In this document: piece by piece, positions 4,916 through 50,970 of the stretch
Layout of the letters: each line of letters begins with the position of its first letter
Numbering within the stretch: position 1 is the first letter of the stretch
DNA from: Flavobacteriales bacterium
Lineage (GTDB): Bacteria > Bacteroidota > Bacteroidia > JACJYZ01
Direction: 5' to 3'
DNA length: 60,807 bases
Assembly (NCBI GenBank): GCA_020435415.1
Contig: JAGQZQ010000009.1
Span: 1-60,807, forward strand
Position numbers and translations under genes: made by a program
Notes under the pieces: generated by a model
Seen by the model: only the letters and a program-made list of their open reading frames with translations
Databases searched by the model: none
Told to the model about the DNA's origin: nothing

Positions 4916-6952
4916 ATGAGCAAAAAGAAAAGACAGACTCCCAGGACTATAGACAAGCAGACAGATAGCGCTTCGTCTTCCACTATGCGGGCTTCGTATA
5001 AAACACCGGGCTGGATTATCTTTTTTGCTTCTGTTGTGGTCTATATCCACACCATCGGATTTGATTATGCGCTGGATGACAAACTCTACGTCACCCATAA
5101 CCAATTTACCAAACAAGGGTTATCCGGTATAAAGGACCTGGCAACCAATGATCTTCTGGTGGGCTTCTTTGGCAAGGATAAAAAGCTGCTTTCAGGCGGA
5201 CGTTATCGCCCATTGCCACTGATCACCTTTGCGCTTGAGGTGGAGATGTTCGGTCAAAATCCACACATCAGTCACTTCGTCAACCTGATATTATACGGTG
5301 CTACGTGTGTTCTGCTTTTTCTGATTCTCATAAAGATTTTTCCTCCGGAGAAAGAAAGGCATTGGGCACGCTCCCTGGCATTTGGCGCAACGCTGTTGTT
5401 TGCTCTTCACCCTCTCCACACTGAGGTCATTGCCAATATCAAAAGCCGGGATGAGATGATGAGTCTCCTTGGCGCATTGGGTAGTTTGTGGTTCTTGCTG
5501 CGCTATGCAGATACGCCTTCAACCAAAGCTTTGGGCTGGGCCTTTCTTTGTTTTACCTGTGCATTGTTCTCCAAGGAGTCCACCGTCACCATGCTTGGGG
5601 CAATACCTGTTACCTTGTTCTACTTCTCAGGGAAGGACCTGAAAACACAAGTAAGGATGGCGGCCCCCTTGTTTCTGGCCTTTGCCGGGTATATGGTAGT
5701 TCGGTTATCGTTATTGGAAGACAACACCCAGGAGGTTCATGAATTACTTAATAACTCTTATGAAGAAGCAACCGGTGCGCAAAAATATGCCACCATCTTT
5801 TATACGATGGGGCTATATATTAAGCTCCTGATATTTCCGCACCCTTTAACCAATGACTATTTTCCATATCATATTTCGCTGGTTAACTGGTCGCATCCGT
5901 TGGTGCTGCTTTCCCTGCTTATATATGCGAGCATGATTGTGGTGGGCCTTCGTGGTATACGCAAGCGTACCGTTGCCTCGTGGGCGATCTGGTTTTTTCT
6001 CATCACCTTTTCACTATTCACCAACCTGGTATTTCCGATCGGTTCGTTTATGAATGAGCGTTTCATGTATGTTCCATCCATTGCCTTTTGTGTGCTGGCA
6101 GCTTATACACTTGGCCCCGTATTGCGAAATCGATTTTCCACAGAAGCCGCACATCAAAAGTTCTATACTGCGGTAGCTGGAATTGTGTTGTTCGCATTCG
6201 CCATAAAGACCGCGCATCGAAGCAATGCGTGGAAGGACGACTACACTTTATCCATTACGGATGTGGCACTTTCACCAAACAGCACCAAGGCCAACATGTC
6301 GGCGGGAGCTGCCCTGCTTGAGAAGGCCAATGCGTTGCAGGATCAAAACCAACGTCATGCACTGGCCAACGAAGCCATAGGATACCTGAACCGTTCATTG
6401 CAAATCTACCCGAATTACAAACAACCCATGTTGCTTCTGGGGAATGCATATTATATGCTTGGACAATATGAAACGGCCTACCTGGGATACAGCAGGGCAT
6501 TGCAGATGGATAACCAATTCAAGGATGCAAAAAACAATCTGGAGTTTCTGGGGGATACCACCTCAGGGGCCAGACAATTCCAGGTGGCGGAAAAATGTTA
6601 TCTCACCCTGCTCCAATACACACCGGATGATGTAAGGGTGTATGGCAAACTCGGGCAGCTGTATGGCCGGGACCTCGGCGACATGGCCAAGGCGCAGAGC
6701 TACCTGGAAAAGGCCATGAACATTGATCCGAACAACAGTGACATTCTCCAGAAACTGGCCATTGTATATTCTTTGACTGGCAACAATAACGAAGCCCTGG
6801 AGACGTTTCTCAAAGCATACAGGCTGAATCCTAAGAATGCCCATGTACTAATGAACATAGGTATCACCTACCGCAATATGGGTGACGAGGCCAAAGCCAC
6901 AGAGTACCTCAATCAGGCGTTTGAATTGAACCCCTCCTTACAGAAACGTTAA
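4916..6952 (+). CDS. TMTC-like multi-pass membrane protein with C-terminal TPR repeats
   Basis: The protein of 678 residues begins with a basic cytoplasmic tail, followed by about ten hydrophobic segments between residues 33 and 440. It ends in a block of tetratricopeptide repeats from about residue 455 to the C-terminus, with repeat starts marked by A-L-x-x-N-P/D-N-N patterns. The first loop contains A-L-D-D-K, and a later loop has Y-R-P-L-P-L-I-T-F and H-P-L-H-T-E. These match GT-C glycosyltransferases of the PMT/TMTC type, which use polyprenol-linked sugars on the periplasmic side. Transfer of a sugar to exported proteins is inferred from the fold and not shown. The gene follows ansA by 20 nt. 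Confidence 0.8.
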   Translation: MSKKKRQTPRTIDKQTDSASSSTMRASYKTPGWIIFFASVVVYIHTIGFDYALDDKLYVTHNQFTKQGLSGIKDLATNDLLVGFFGKDKKLLSGGRYRPLPLITFALEVEMFGQNPHISHFVNLILYGATCVLLFLILIKIFPPEKERHWARSLAFGATLLFALHPLHTEVIANIKSRDEMMSLLGALGSLWFLLRYADTPSTKALGWAFLCFTCALFSKESTVTMLGAIPVTLFYFSGKDLKTQVRMAAPLFLAFAGYMVVRLSLLEDNTQEVHELLNNSYEEATGAQKYATIFYTMGLYIKLLIFPHPLTNDYFPYHISLVNWSHPLVLLSLLIYASMIVVGLRGIRKRTVASWAIWFFLITFSLFTNLVFPIGSFMNERFMYVPSIAFCVLAAYTLGPVLRNRFSTEAAHQKFYTAVAGIVLFAFAIKTAHRSNAWKDDYTLSITDVALSPNSTKANMSAGAALLEKANALQDQNQRHALANEAIGYLNRSLQIYPNYKQPMLLLGNAYYMLGQYETAYLGYSRALQMDNQFKDAKNNLEFLGDTTSGARQFQVAEKCYLTLLQYTPDDVRVYGKLGQLYGRDLGDMAKAQSYLEKAMNIDPNNSDILQKLAIVYSLTGNNNEALETFLKAYRLNPKNAHVLMNIGITYRNMGDEAKATEYLNQAFELNPSLQKR

Positions 6953-45234: not shown

Positions 45235-45798
45235 CTAAGCTTTGGGCAAACCATACCTGAAGCAGGTAGTAAGATGATCATTCACCATACCACTGGCTTG
45301 CATGAATGCATAACAGATGGTGGTACCGCAAAATTTGAAGCCACGTTTTTTTAGATCCCTGCTCATGGCATCGGATTCGGCGGTGCGGGCGGGTACTTCA
45401 GACGGGCTGGAAAAATGATTTTTTTGTTGGGTATGTCCTACGAAGGACCAGATGTAAGCATCAAAGGATCCGAAAGACTCCTGAACTTTAAGAAATGCCT
45501 GGGCATTCACTATTGCCGATTGGATCTTCAAACGATTTCTGACGATGCCCTCATTATTCATCAGGCCTTTGATCTTGGACTGATCATATGCAGCGATAGC
45601 CTCTGGGTTGAATTGATCGAACGCCTGACGGAAATTTTCTCTTTTTCTAAGAATGGTCAACCAACTCAGTCCTGCCTGGAAGCCCTCCAGGAGCAGTAGT
45701 TCAAACAAGGCCTGGTCGCTATGTTGTTCCTTGCCCCATTCCTCATCATGGTACCGGATGTAGTCGGGATCGTTCCCACACCAGGGACATCTTACCAT
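45235..45798 (-). CDS. tag: DNA-3-methyladenine glycosylase I
   Basis: The protein of 187 residues shows the Tag family pattern M-V-R-C4-P-W-C, Y-H17-D-E-E-W-G, and a C-terminal H-L-T-T-C. The N-terminal cysteine and histidine with the C-terminal pair form the zinc snap of this family. It removes 3-methyladenine from alkylated DNA in the cytosol. It lies 14 nt after the broken siaC-like gene on the same strand, so it may be read from the same transcript. Confidence 0.95.
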   Translation of the reverse strand: MVRCPWCGNDPDYIRYHDEEWGKEQHSDQALFELLLLEGFQAGLSWLTILRKRENFRQAFDQFNPEAIAAYDQSKIKGLMNNEGIVRNRLKIQSAIVNAQAFLKVQESFGSFDAYIWSFVGHTQQKNHFSSPSEVPARTAESDAMSRDLKKRGFKFCGTTICYAFMQASGMVNDHLTTCFRYGLPKA

Positions 45799-45812: not shown

Positions 45813-46232
45813 CTAACCTGCGTCGTTTACAGCAATAAAATTAAAGGGGATGGAAATCAGGCGATCGTACTCTTCCCCTGCTTCCTTCATATCTTCATCC
45901 ACTTCCTCGTACTTCCAGTCTACCTTAATTTCAAAACCATCCTGTTTGATCTGATCCAGGCGGGTAAGCATATCCAGGATATATTTGGCAGATGTGGAAT
46001 TAAAATATTCGAAGAAGAATGTGAATGTAAATGCTTTGCCAGCACTATCCGGCTAGTTATCCTTGAGCCAATACAGGGATGACTTGTACTTATCCAGCCA
46101 CTCCAGAATGGGTTCGTAAAACTTTCGTACATCTTCGGGTCTGGACTCACCTATGATTTCATAAGTACCCTTCTCAGGATCGAGGGTGATGGCCGGAGAA
46201 CTTTCCGTCGCGGGTATCCTTAGTGCTTCCAT
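45813..46232 (-). pseudogene. SiaC-like DUF1987 protein gene with in-frame amber codon
   Basis: Read leftward from the ATG at 46232, this frame encodes a DUF1987 protein in 138 sense codons, but codon 60 is TAG (46055-46053). Both halves match the family in the same frame. Residues 1-59 carry P-A-I-T-L-D-P-E-K-G and F-Y-E-P-I-L-E-W-L. After the stop come F-E-Y-F-N-S-T-S-A-K-Y-I-L-D and D-E-D-M-K-E-A-G-E-E-Y. A single base change from CAG or AAG would create the stop. The family homologue SiaC in Pseudomonas is phosphorylated by SiaB and dephosphorylated by SiaA; both partner types lie immediately upstream. A true null, a read-through codon or a sequencing error cannot be told apart here. Confidence 0.85.
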
Positions 46233-46236
46233 AATC

Positions 46237-46803
46237 TTAATCTTCAGGTGATTGAGTTATATTAACTTGTAAGATATAAAATACAGACTGCATGTCATAG
46301 TCGTGAAAGGCGTATTCCAGCTTCCTTCCTGATCTCATGGCAATATCCACCAAACCGAGTCCGGCTCCTCCTTTTTCCGACACAAATCCGTTGGTAATGA
46401 TCTGGCGGTATCTCTCTTTGAGACCCTCCCGGTCGAGACCATTGACTTCTTCAATCTGTTTCTTTAACACGGCCGCATCCTCTGTTGTGATAAGGTTACC
46501 TATCCTTACCAGATAACCATCGTCATTCTGGCCCAGCAATATGATACCTTCAGGGGCTTCCTTAATGGGATCCTCGATCATAATGTTCTTCGCATGCTTC
46601 AGGATATTCTCCATACATTCCACCAGCACATTATACAGCCGTTTCACCAGTACAGGATCATGTTTTCCCCTTTCAAATTCTCTCTTGGCGTGTTTCAACA
46701 TCATGGTAATAACCTGATGTGAGAACTCGCCCTGGTAGGCGGAAATGATCTTTTCTTTCACCATGTTCTGGTGAAGGTGAAATATGATCTCCGGATCAAT
46801 CAT
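46237..46803 (-). CDS. SiaB family protein kinase (DUF6272)
   Basis: The protein of 188 residues is a small GHKL-type kinase. The N-box is E62-C-M-E-N66-I-L-K-H70, and the glycine-rich ATP lid is G145-G-A-G-L-G150-L-V-D-I-A. It has no membrane segment and is predicted to be cytosolic. The SiaB family phosphorylates a serine or threonine on its SiaC partner, like a bacterial anti-sigma-factor kinase. The stop is 4 nt before the siaC-like ATG, and the phosphatase gene ends 25 nt upstream, so the three form one operon. Confidence 0.88.
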   Translation of the reverse strand: MIDPEIIFHLHQNMVKEKIISAYQGEFSHQVITMMLKHAKREFERGKHDPVLVKRLYNVLVECMENILKHAKNIMIEDPIKEAPEGIILLGQNDDGYLVRIGNLITTEDAAVLKKQIEEVNGLDREGLKERYRQIITNGFVSEKGGAGLGLVDIAMRSGRKLEYAFHDYDMQSVFYILQVNITQSPED

Positions 46804-46828: not shown

Positions 46829-49800
46829 TCAAATACGTATGCCGAATACGAGGATATCATCAATTTGTTCCATATTCTTCATCCATTCGTTGATGGTTTC
46901 ATCCAGTTTCTTCTTCTGGGATTCCACCGGCAATGCGGATATTTCAACCAACAATTCCTTGAATGGCGGATAATAAAACTTTTTCTTTTTAGGCCCTCCT
47001 TTTTGGTCTGCGAATCCATCGGAGAACATATAAATCATGTCTCCCTTTTCGAGCTTACGGGTTTGATTCTTGAAGGAATCCTGCATACTTGGAGGTCTTT
47101 TTCCAATGGGCACCTTGTCTCCTTTCAATTCCTCCAGCACCCCTTGACGCACAAGGTACAGTGGGTTATATGCGCCCGAAAATCCGAGTTCCATTTTCTT
47201 ATGATCAATGCTGCAAAGGGCAATGTCCATACCATCCTTTACCTCCGAAGACTCTTCCTTCTGACGCAAAGTCTTGATAACCTCTTTGCTCAGAGAAGAA
47301 AGTATTTCGGCCGGATTCGTCTGGTTGTATTCATTCACGATCTTATCTATCAAATTATGTCCGATCAATGACATGAATGCACCTGGAACCCCATGACCGG
47401 TGCAATCCACCGCTGCGGCGAGGGTCTTATCTCCTTTCTGATCCACCCAATAAAAATCGCCACTTACAATGTCTTTTGGCTTGAACAAGATAAAGTATTC
47501 CGGTAAACTTTGTTTCAGACTCTCCCGGGATGGCAGAATGGCTTCCTGGATCTTTTGCGCATAATTGATACTGTCGGTGATCTGTTGATTCTTATGGCTG
47601 ATCACCTGGCTTTGTGATTCCACTTTTTCTTTTTCTGCACGAAGTTCAACCGTTCGCTCTGCCACTTCCGCTTCCAGAATTTTTTGCCGTGCCTTCATGT
47701 TACGTTCCCTTAACTTCATGATCATATAGATCAGAAGCAATGATGCAGCTATGCAAATGCCCACGAACCACCATGTCATCCAAAATGGTGTTTCGATCAC
47801 AAATGAATAGGATACAGGTTCTTCATTCCAAACCTGATCGCGGTTGGCAGCCTTCACCTTCAGGGTGTATGATCCGGGTCTCAGATTGGAAAAGGTAATC
47901 TGATTGGTTTTCTGTGGGGGAGACCATTCTTTGTCAAATCCTTCCAGCATGTAGCTGTAAGTTACCTGATCTGGGTTGGCAAGGCTGATACCCAGGAAAG
48001 AAAAGGTCAGGTGATTCTGTTCGTAACCAAAGCTACCGTTCTCCGGATAATCGGCCTCTTCCAGAAATATCTTCAACTTCTTATCAATGGATGTGATGGG
48101 TGGAACCTTATTGGCACGATCTTTATCCGGATCCAGTTTCACTGCGCCACGGATCGTACCGAACCATACATTCCCCATTTTATCACGGGTGACCGCATTC
48201 AGATTTGTTTCAATGTTGATATATCCCTGCTTCTTACCGAAACGATGAAACTGACCCGTTGCAACATCCAATTGTTCCACACCATGATTATGGCCGATCC
48301 ATACCTGGTCATTACCATCTACGACCACAAAAGTCGGTGACTCAGAACCGAGTCCATCAGAACTTGTAAACTGTTTGAACGATGAGCCGTCATACTTGTA
48401 TATACCTCCTCCGTAGGAGATCATCCAGATATTTCCGGATTTGTCTTCACCAAACCCAAGGATGAACTTTTGGTTCAATCCCTCAGCCTCACCGAACTGT
48501 TTAAAACCATTGCCATCGAAGGTGGTCATAAAGCCACCCAGAATACCCATCCATAGTGTGCCTTTGCTGTCCTTGAACAAGCTATATACCTTGTCGCCAC
48601 CTAATCCGTCTGCACTGGTATATCTCACTAAGTCATTGGACTCCGGCTCATAGGATACGGCTCCTTCCGGCGTACCAAACCAGAGCACACCATTCTTATC
48701 TTCCTGTATTGAAAATACCGTTTCGGATCCTGTTGATATGAATCCGGGAATGGGGGTAAACTTTCCTTTTACCTGGTCAAACAAATATGCACCTCCCATT
48801 TCCGTACCTACCCATATCCTGCCTTGTGTGTCCTCGTAAACACTTAGCACGACAGGATCTGATAAACCAGCACCAACACCGAACGATGTCACCACCGGGC
48901 TATAATACAATCGCTGACCGGAAGGTGTCAGGGGGAAGTTCATTCGCGCCAACCCTTCATTTGTTCCCAGCCAGACGATATTGTCCCGATCGGTCATGAC
49001 CGACCACACCATGTTGCTGGGTAGATTATCATTGTGGTTATACAGCCTGAACATATCGCCTTTGTAAAGGCTCAATCCGATGTCTGTTCCCATCCACACA
49101 TTCGCTTCCCTGTCCAGGAAGAATGCATTGGCTTCATAATACTTCATCTCCAGTTTGTTGCCGAACGTATGTACTTCTCCGGGAACAAATCCGTTGCCGG
49201 ACGTCCCCTTTTCTGTGGGTACAAACTGAAACAACCCCTGATCATCCGTAGCGATCCAAACTTTTTCATCCGTGTCTTCAAAAATGAGCTTAACAGAGGT
49301 GGACGGTAATCCTTTTTCTGAAGAAATCCATGCGGTTTCGCCAACCGGGTTCTCACCTGCCTTCAACCTGAGAATTCCATTGCCTTTGACTGCAAGCCAC
49401 AATTCATTGCCGTTGATCACGGACATTGAACGGATGCTCCCGTGTGTCAATCCTAACTCTTCGCCGAAGCATGCGCTGGCTTTATTTGAGGCAGGATCGA
49501 TCAGGCAAAGTCCTTTGGCGGTAGCTACCCAGAGCCGGGACTGGTCATCAAGCGCCAAGGCAACGATCTGGTTACTGTTCAAACCTTCAATGGCCGTCAC
49601 TTCTGGTCCTACCGGGTTGTAACTAAAAAGACCAGCGCTTTCCGTTGCCAGCCAAATCTTTCCGTTGGGATCACTTAACAGTTGGGTGATCGGTTTGTAT
49701 TTGCTGTATTTCTCAAATGCCAGCGGATCACTGAACTGACGTTGCTCGTTATCGTAGAAGGTCACACCTCCACCCCAGTGGCCAAACCAAAGATTTCCAT

Positions 49801-50071
49801 TGGCATCCAGACAGGAAGCTGTAATCCAGTCTTCCGCAAGCCCGTCTTTCCTGGTATAGTTTTTAAACGTGTATCCATCATACCTGGAAAGGCCTCCAAC
49901 GGTTCCGATCCAGAGGTTTCCATCATGGTCCTGTTCAATGCTTTGTATCTGTGACTGAACCAGTCCGTCTTCTACCGTAAATGTCTTGAAGTTCGTGGAT
50001 TGTGCACGAAGACCCAGGCTTGTGGCAAAAATCCAGGAGAAAATAATAACTATGCCTTTGTTGTTCATCAT
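46829..50071 (-). CDS. Hybrid sensor with periplasmic propeller, Y_Y_Y domain and PP2C phosphatase (SiaA-like)
   Basis: The protein of about 1080 residues has a signal peptide ending L-R-A-Q. About 14 propeller repeats of the two-component regulator type follow, with the core N-L-W-I-G-T-x-G-G-L and variants. A Y_Y_Y domain (about 690-760), one membrane helix at 768-788, a coiled coil, and a cytoplasmic PP2C/SpoIIE phosphatase complete it. The phosphatase has A-V-D-C-T-G-H-G-V-P-G-A-F-M and S-D-G-F-A-D. A ligand in the periplasm probably controls dephosphorylation of the SiaC-like target. Starts GTG 50083, ATG 50071 and ATG 50068 are possible; the GTG overlaps the upstream stop. Confidence 0.92.
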   Translation of the reverse strand: MMNNKGIVIIFSWIFATSLGLRAQSTNFKTFTVEDGLVQSQIQSIEQDHDGNLWIGTVGGLSRYDGYTFKNYTRKDGLAEDWITASCLDANGNLWFGHWGGGVTFYDNEQRQFSDPLAFEKYSKYKPITQLLSDPNGKIWLATESAGLFSYNPVGPEVTAIEGLNSNQIVALALDDQSRLWVATAKGLCLIDPASNKASACFGEELGLTHGSIRSMSVINGNELWLAVKGNGILRLKAGENPVGETAWISSEKGLPSTSVKLIFEDTDEKVWIATDDQGLFQFVPTEKGTSGNGFVPGEVHTFGNKLEMKYYEANAFFLDREANVWMGTDIGLSLYKGDMFRLYNHNDNLPSNMVWSVMTDRDNIVWLGTNEGLARMNFPLTPSGQRLYYSPVVTSFGVGAGLSDPVVLSVYEDTQGRIWVGTEMGGAYLFDQVKGKFTPIPGFISTGSETVFSIQEDKNGVLWFGTPEGAVSYEPESNDLVRYTSADGLGGDKVYSLFKDSKGTLWMGILGGFMTTFDGNGFKQFGEAEGLNQKFILGFGEDKSGNIWMISYGGGIYKYDGSSFKQFTSSDGLGSESPTFVVVDGNDQVWIGHNHGVEQLDVATGQFHRFGKKQGYINIETNLNAVTRDKMGNVWFGTIRGAVKLDPDKDRANKVPPITSIDKKLKIFLEEADYPENGSFGYEQNHLTFSFLGISLANPDQVTYSYMLEGFDKEWSPPQKTNQITFSNLRPGSYTLKVKAANRDQVWNEEPVSYSFVIETPFWMTWWFVGICIAASLLLIYMIMKLRERNMKARQKILEAEVAERTVELRAEKEKVESQSQVISHKNQQITDSINYAQKIQEAILPSRESLKQSLPEYFILFKPKDIVSGDFYWVDQKGDKTLAAAVDCTGHGVPGAFMSLIGHNLIDKIVNEYNQTNPAEILSSLSKEVIKTLRQKEESSEVKDGMDIALCSIDHKKMELGFSGAYNPLYLVRQGVLEELKGDKVPIGKRPPSMQDSFKNQTRKLEKGDMIYMFSDGFADQKGGPKKKKFYYPPFKELLVEISALPVESQKKKLDETINEWMKNMEQIDDILVFGIRI

Positions 50072-50079
50072 AGGTCGTA

Positions 50080-50970
50080 TCACGGATTTTTTTGTTTTTC
50101 CTTGTTTACCGCTTCCGACAACTCTTCACGCCATCTTCTGGTTACCCTGGCCTTTGCCTGACGGCTTTCCAGCTCTTTCTTCACATTCGTCTGATTGATC
50201 TTGTCGACGGACTCTTTGTCTTCTGCCACCTTGCGCTGATCAACCACATTCTCCTTCACCTCTTCCCGGATCACTCTTTCTTTAGGATCTTCCTGGTTTC
50301 CTGCAGCGGCAGCCCGTTGGAATTTCAAATCTGACGCCTTGTTCAACTCCTCTGTTTCCTTTTTGATCTGCGCCTCCTCATCAGATATCGGAGGTGTTTC
50401 GGATTCTATGTGTATCGGTTTCGTCTCTTTTGTGATTTCCTCCTTGGACTCGGTTTTAATCAAGGGCGGATTTTCCTCTTTAGGCTTTAAGACATAGGAT
50501 ACGGAGTTCTCATATGGCACCGGCATACCGAAGTTCTCCTTGGACCTGATATAATTTACCTTGACTACTGCAGGCCTTCTGAGGCGGGCAATGTAACCGT
50601 CCTTTTCCGGAAACACATCCAGGGTTGTTTTGTAAATCAGGATGTACTTTTTCATAGATGCAGGAACCGTGGTATTCAACTCAATGGTCATCCCGACATA
50701 GCCTGCCTTTGTCAGTTCGATCGAATAAACCCCATCGTATGGGATATGAAAGTTGAAAGAACCGTCACTTCCTGATGTGGCCTTCTCCACGGACTTTCCG
50801 GAGCGCATCAGATTGGCAGATACGCCGGCGAGAGGTTGATCATCAACCACCATAACAGCCGTAAACTCCAGGTATGATTCCGCCGGGAACGCAGACGTAC
50901 CCAGGCCTGTGATTAGAACCAACAGGAGAGCTACCTTCCTCAATAATTGAATGTTGTGAATGAATCCCAT
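50080..50970 (-). CDS. Exported protein with carboxypeptidase-regulatory-like domain and charged coiled coil
   Basis: The protein of 296 residues has a signal peptide (M-G-F-I-H to A-F-P-A). Residues 30-115 form a beta-sandwich of the carboxypeptidase regulatory-like type, with L-A-G-V-S-A-N-L and D-G-S-F-N-F-H-I-P. Residues 150-296 are rich in E, K and R and likely form a coiled coil. It leads directly into the sensor gene (overlapping stop and start), so it probably acts with it in the periplasm, perhaps by presenting a surface or ligand signal. That role is inferred from the operon. The ATG at 50970 was preferred over 50997, since it precedes the hydrophobic signal. Confidence 0.75.
   Translation of the reverse strand: MGFIHNIQLLRKVALLLVLITGLGTSAFPAESYLEFTAVMVVDDQPLAGVSANLMRSGKSVEKATSGSDGSFNFHIPYDGVYSIELTKAGYVGMTIELNTTVPASMKKYILIYKTTLDVFPEKDGYIARLRRPAVVKVNYIRSKENFGMPVPYENSVSYVLKPKEENPPLIKTESKEEITKETKPIHIESETPPISDEEAQIKKETEELNKASDLKFQRAAAAGNQEDPKERVIREEVKENVVDQRKVAEDKESVDKINQTNVKKELESRQAKARVTRRWREELSEAVNKEKQKNP

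Follow-up and report, generated by a model that had tools for sequence, protein, structure and literature searches.

In Pseudomonas aeruginosa, the SiaC protein carries a threonine at the start of helix 2 (Thr68) which is phosphorylated by SiaB and dephosphorylated by SiaA (PMC7647112), and SiaC phosphorylated at this position stops binding to SiaD (PMC8457831). The locus studied here lies within a stretch of 60,807 nucleotides from a Flavobacteriales bacterium (contig JAGQZQ010000009.1 of assembly GCA_020435415.1), referred to below as the window. It contains an operon with the order SiaA-SiaB-SiaC, in which the last gene, siaC, is interrupted by an in-frame TAG. The features of the locus are as follows:

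46829..50083, minus strand: SiaA-like sensor phosphatase, intact, with Reg_prop repeats, Y_Y_Y and SpoIIE/PP2C domain (profile matches)
46237..46803, minus strand: SiaB-family protein kinase (DUF6272, PF19788; NF038262), intact, 4 bases upstream of siaC (profile matches)
45813..46232, minus strand: siaC-like gene (DUF1987/SiaC, PF09345), interrupted at codon 60 (translation, Pfam, coding signal)
46053..46055, minus strand: codon 60, an in-frame TAG inside a loop insert specific to a subgroup; makes a CTAG tetranucleotide
45990..46004, minus strand: FNSTS, codons 77-81, including S79; 3' of the stop (alignment)
45235..45798, minus strand: DNA-3-methyladenine glycosylase I, next gene downstream, intact, outside the module (profile matches)

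The kinase and phosphatase genes had been described as looking intact in the first-pass annotation, which the profile matches confirm. The sensor is a protein of 1084 residues comprising propeller repeats, Y_Y_Y and a SpoIIE/PP2C phosphatase domain. The SiaB-like kinase scores 146.1 bits against NF038262 (cut-off 85) and is therefore a subfamily member. The SiaC of the window scores 70.9 bits against the equivalog NF038265, below the cut-off of 150; judged by its sequence, it is a member of the SiaC family but not a SiaC of the P. aeruginosa type. In class relatives, a SiaB gene adjoins most of the other SiaC loci examined.

The siaC-like gene and its in-frame TAG

While the plus-strand reading of 45813-46232 is meaningless, the minus strand, which the first-pass annotation does not name, encodes an open reading frame that begins with ATG and runs for 59 codons up to the TAG at codon 60, beyond which 79 sense codons lead to the terminal TAG (codon 140). 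No frameshift was found within the gene, the single in-frame stop being the sole lesion, and no direct or inverted repeats were found near it. The read-through protein matches the Pfam SiaC profile (PF09345) with 114.7 bits (cut-off 24.5 bits) over residues 6-134, corresponding to positions 1-119 of the 120 in the profile, so that the match spans the stop; the 59-residue product actually encoded covers just the front part of the domain. The same region was also marked by a genome-wide SiaC search, with one inner stop, TAG. The dicodon coding signal is 21.4 upstream of the stop and 24.6 downstream of it, compared with 11.6 for the best competing frame on the opposite strand. A chance pairing of two open reading frames was considered and is ruled out by the full-domain match together with the approximately equal coding signal on both sides. 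The two halves thus belong to one SiaC domain, and the initial description of a lone TAG at codon 60 in an unshifted frame holds in both respects.

The protein retains all of the 20 strongly conserved columns (those on which 14 or more of the 15 homologues agree), which indicates that the stop arose recently or is absent from the cells.

Position of the stop within the protein

Codon 60 falls within an insert of about 11 residues that separates helix 1 from the strand after it and is confined to a subgroup of SiaC proteins. In the alignment, those homologues that have a residue at this position carry Y, F, S or L. Behind the stop, the Thr/Ser phosphoacceptor with which helix 2 begins is present as S79, which aligns with the phosphorylated Thr68 of P. 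aeruginosa SiaC (LLYLNTSSIK in the latter, FNSTSAK in the window protein). A 59-residue product would lack this residue as well as most of the fold, and such a fragment would probably be inactive. The next in-frame ATG after the stop is codon 88, which is already beyond the phosphoacceptor.

Other interrupted genes and decoding of TAG

Rates of interruption were drawn from family searches and from a sample of about 459 kb including the window, which represents 13% of the genome; the assembly itself is a draft of 194 contigs. The sample holds two further genes with a single stop, one TAA and one TAG, both of which give Pfam matches when read through:

G000:C1:5574-6353 (L184), minus strand: LytTR-type response regulator, single in-frame TAA inside the receiver domain (stop at 6096-6098)
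G000:C1:91060-91710 (L188:11060-11710), minus strand: polyketide-cyclase/SRPBCC-like gene, single in-frame TAG, Pfam match across the stop (stop at C1:91414-91416; L188 11414-11416)

The frame of the response regulator gene is otherwise intact, and a histidine kinase-like gene follows it. A search of the PDB with the interrupted polyketide-cyclase-like gene returned chance matches only. Such lone stops, which look like ordinary nonsense alleles or consensus errors, thus recur in this genome and are not tied to TAG. Family searches within the same genome found inner stops in 2 of 121 domain matches, compared with none of the 117 SiaC matches from class relatives, although with such small numbers the difference may be due to chance. 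Among the stronger matches, those listed for the response regulators of nine relatives, there was likewise no inner stop. A scan of the sample for frameshifts flagged mostly overlapping gene ends, and the one call that was translated proved false. The tetranucleotide CTAG is strongly avoided in the sample (78 occurrences, 315 expected from trinucleotide counts), and the appearance of a new CTAG at codon 60 slightly favours a stop that is very recent or spurious.

The possibility that the TAG is decoded as an amino acid, raised in the first-pass annotation, is not supported. Release factor RF1 is intact and full length (TIGR00019, 503 bits), RF2 is also present and intact, and TAG terminates 73 of the 323 sampled genes, siaC itself being a TAG-ended gene. 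The search for a suppressor was negative as well: a CUA or UUA anticodon is absent from all 32 tRNAs identified (in a tRNA set from which several isotypes are missing), and a pattern scan of the whole assembly for CUA tRNAs yielded four hits where the reversed control yielded more, none of the four being a tRNA. Three tRNA matches unreported by ARAGORN were considered as suppressors and discarded, since inspection by eye assigned them to Lys(CTT), Arg(CCG) and Arg(TCT). As for further genes with an in-frame TAG, the sample has one (the polyketide-cyclase-like gene), but the second interrupted gene has TAA. Amber recoding was rejected in view of RF1, the usage of TAG, the terminal TAG of siaC and the other in-frame stops, TAA included.

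Origin of the in-frame stop

We consider an ordinary, recent single nonsense allele of siaC to be the best explanation, with a probability of roughly 55%. One substitution would have created the TAG at codon 60, too recently for any other decay to have accumulated in the gene. Translation would then end after 59 residues, ahead of the strand-helix segment carrying the phosphoacceptor serine, and for this reason the SiaB-like kinase and the SiaA-like phosphatase of the operon would be deprived of their cognate substrate, leaving a pathway that is presumably either silent or reliant on a paralogue. The lone in-frame stop within a full-length family match, the lack of any departure in the conserved columns and the two other single-stop genes (one of them with TAA) all speak for this explanation, which supposes that the base is real in living cells. 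So do the SiaB genes adjacent to most other SiaC loci, combined with the absence of inner stops from the SiaC matches of class relatives. Against it, an erroneous consensus base in a draft of 194 contigs would give an identical picture, and the reading as a pseudogene has no backing from a signal of relaxed selection. The best SiaA relatives from named genomes are about 30-46% identical and are therefore too distant for dN/dS or dating, and no SiaC was found within their flanks, so that they offer no help at codon 60.

It is quite conceivable, if somewhat less probable, that the cells carry an intact siaC and that the consensus shows TAG through an incorrect base or one present in a minority, arising from sequencing, from assembly or from a mixture of strains. 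The draft state of the assembly, the lack of further damage to siaC and the avoidance of CTAG are all compatible with this, and the two additional lone stops in 459 kb would fit a raised rate of substitution errors. However, taking all three stops as errors implies a substitution error rate of about 2 in 10,000 bases (our own estimate, assuming that roughly 4% of substitutions yield a stop), which is high for a short-read consensus, and a rough scan did not show frameshifted genes in correspondingly raised numbers. Readthrough of the TAG, by a suppressor tRNA, near-cognate decoding or a programmed event, would yield full-length SiaC, perhaps at low or regulated levels. The frame and the conserved residues are intact past the stop, which moreover lies in a loop of variable residue identity, where an inserted residue could be tolerated. 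It is nevertheless improbable considering the release factor, the ordinary use of TAG as a terminator and the tRNA results described above, in addition to which no homologue has a stop at this position and the sequence around it is free of direct or inverted repeats. A specific form of it, in which a low, regulated level of TAG decoding at a codon in a tolerant loop sets the amount of the switch protein, is more doubtful still. Least probable of all is a functional truncated or split SiaC, in which the first 59 residues, or a protein begun at an internal start, would have a function of their own; only the open reading frame itself speaks for it, while the cut lies inside a single SiaC domain, a restart at codon 88 would come too late to include the phosphoacceptor, and no class-relative homologue shares an inner stop. 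Of the three readings that had been offered at the outset (loss, readthrough and error), loss and error therefore both stand, while readthrough is unsupported.

SiaC and SiaB copies elsewhere in the genome

A whole-genome search found three SiaC genes, namely the window copy and two intact ones. One of these (on C22) belongs to a complete SpoIIE-SiaB-SiaC set, while the other (on C67; L159, 8905-11640) is of the loop-insert type like the window copy, and is adjoined by a divergent TPR-SpoIIE gene, with no SiaB. A third SiaB, on C135 (L145, L160), is an orphan with no SiaC match nearby. Because of these three copies, the loss of one SiaC could be tolerated, which is consistent with a nonsense allele. 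The earlier suggestion that another DUF1987 paralogue might serve the sensor is borne out as far as two intact copies exist, and it is possible that one of them cooperates with the SiaA and SiaB of the window and substitutes for its SiaC. Two further arrangements were observed: a tandem SiaB-SiaC-SiaB-SiaC array in a class relative (G005:C67, L169, 5044-7005), and a run of three consecutive genes with SpoIIE domains, after which come two SiaB-like stretches (L033, 5902-15348).

If the stop is real, the locus would be a naturally occurring instance in which a partner-switch module has parted with its own switch protein while retaining the sensor phosphatase and the kinase, in a genome where the SiaC family is kept and intact paralogues may take over. 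Should it be an error, it would call for caution in interpreting lone in-frame stops in draft genomes. As things stand the significance is small, and the locus makes no argument for amber recoding in this lineage.

Comparison with known systems

The likeness to SiaABC of P. aeruginosa noted in the first-pass annotation is valid at the family level only. Both systems (PMC7647112, PMC8457831) consist of a PP2C/SpoIIE sensor phosphatase, a SiaB-family kinase (DUF6272) and a DUF1987 SiaC, encoded in the same order, and the window SiaC is homologous along its whole length to the P. aeruginosa SiaC structures (6KKO, 6K4F and 7E6G). They differ in that the sensor of the window is a two-component-regulator propeller/Y_Y_Y protein, and that its SiaC, with the loop insert of about 11 residues, has Ser where the P. 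aeruginosa protein has Thr68. The window proteins also fall below the NCBIfam equivalog cut-offs for SiaC and SiaB, and no gene for the diguanylate cyclase SiaD was found in the operon, the glycosylase gene lying downstream instead. The loop-insert subgroup, which includes proteins from other families of the same class and the C67 paralogue, shows about 39-51% identity to the window protein and an FNSTSAK-type motif, and most members have the insert that separates helix 1 from the following strand; unlike in the window SiaC, the insert contains a stop in none of them. With regard to the lesion itself, ordinary single-nonsense alleles and pseudogenes of draft bacterial genomes present the same picture as the window siaC, from which they do not differ: one stop, an intact frame and no second lesion.
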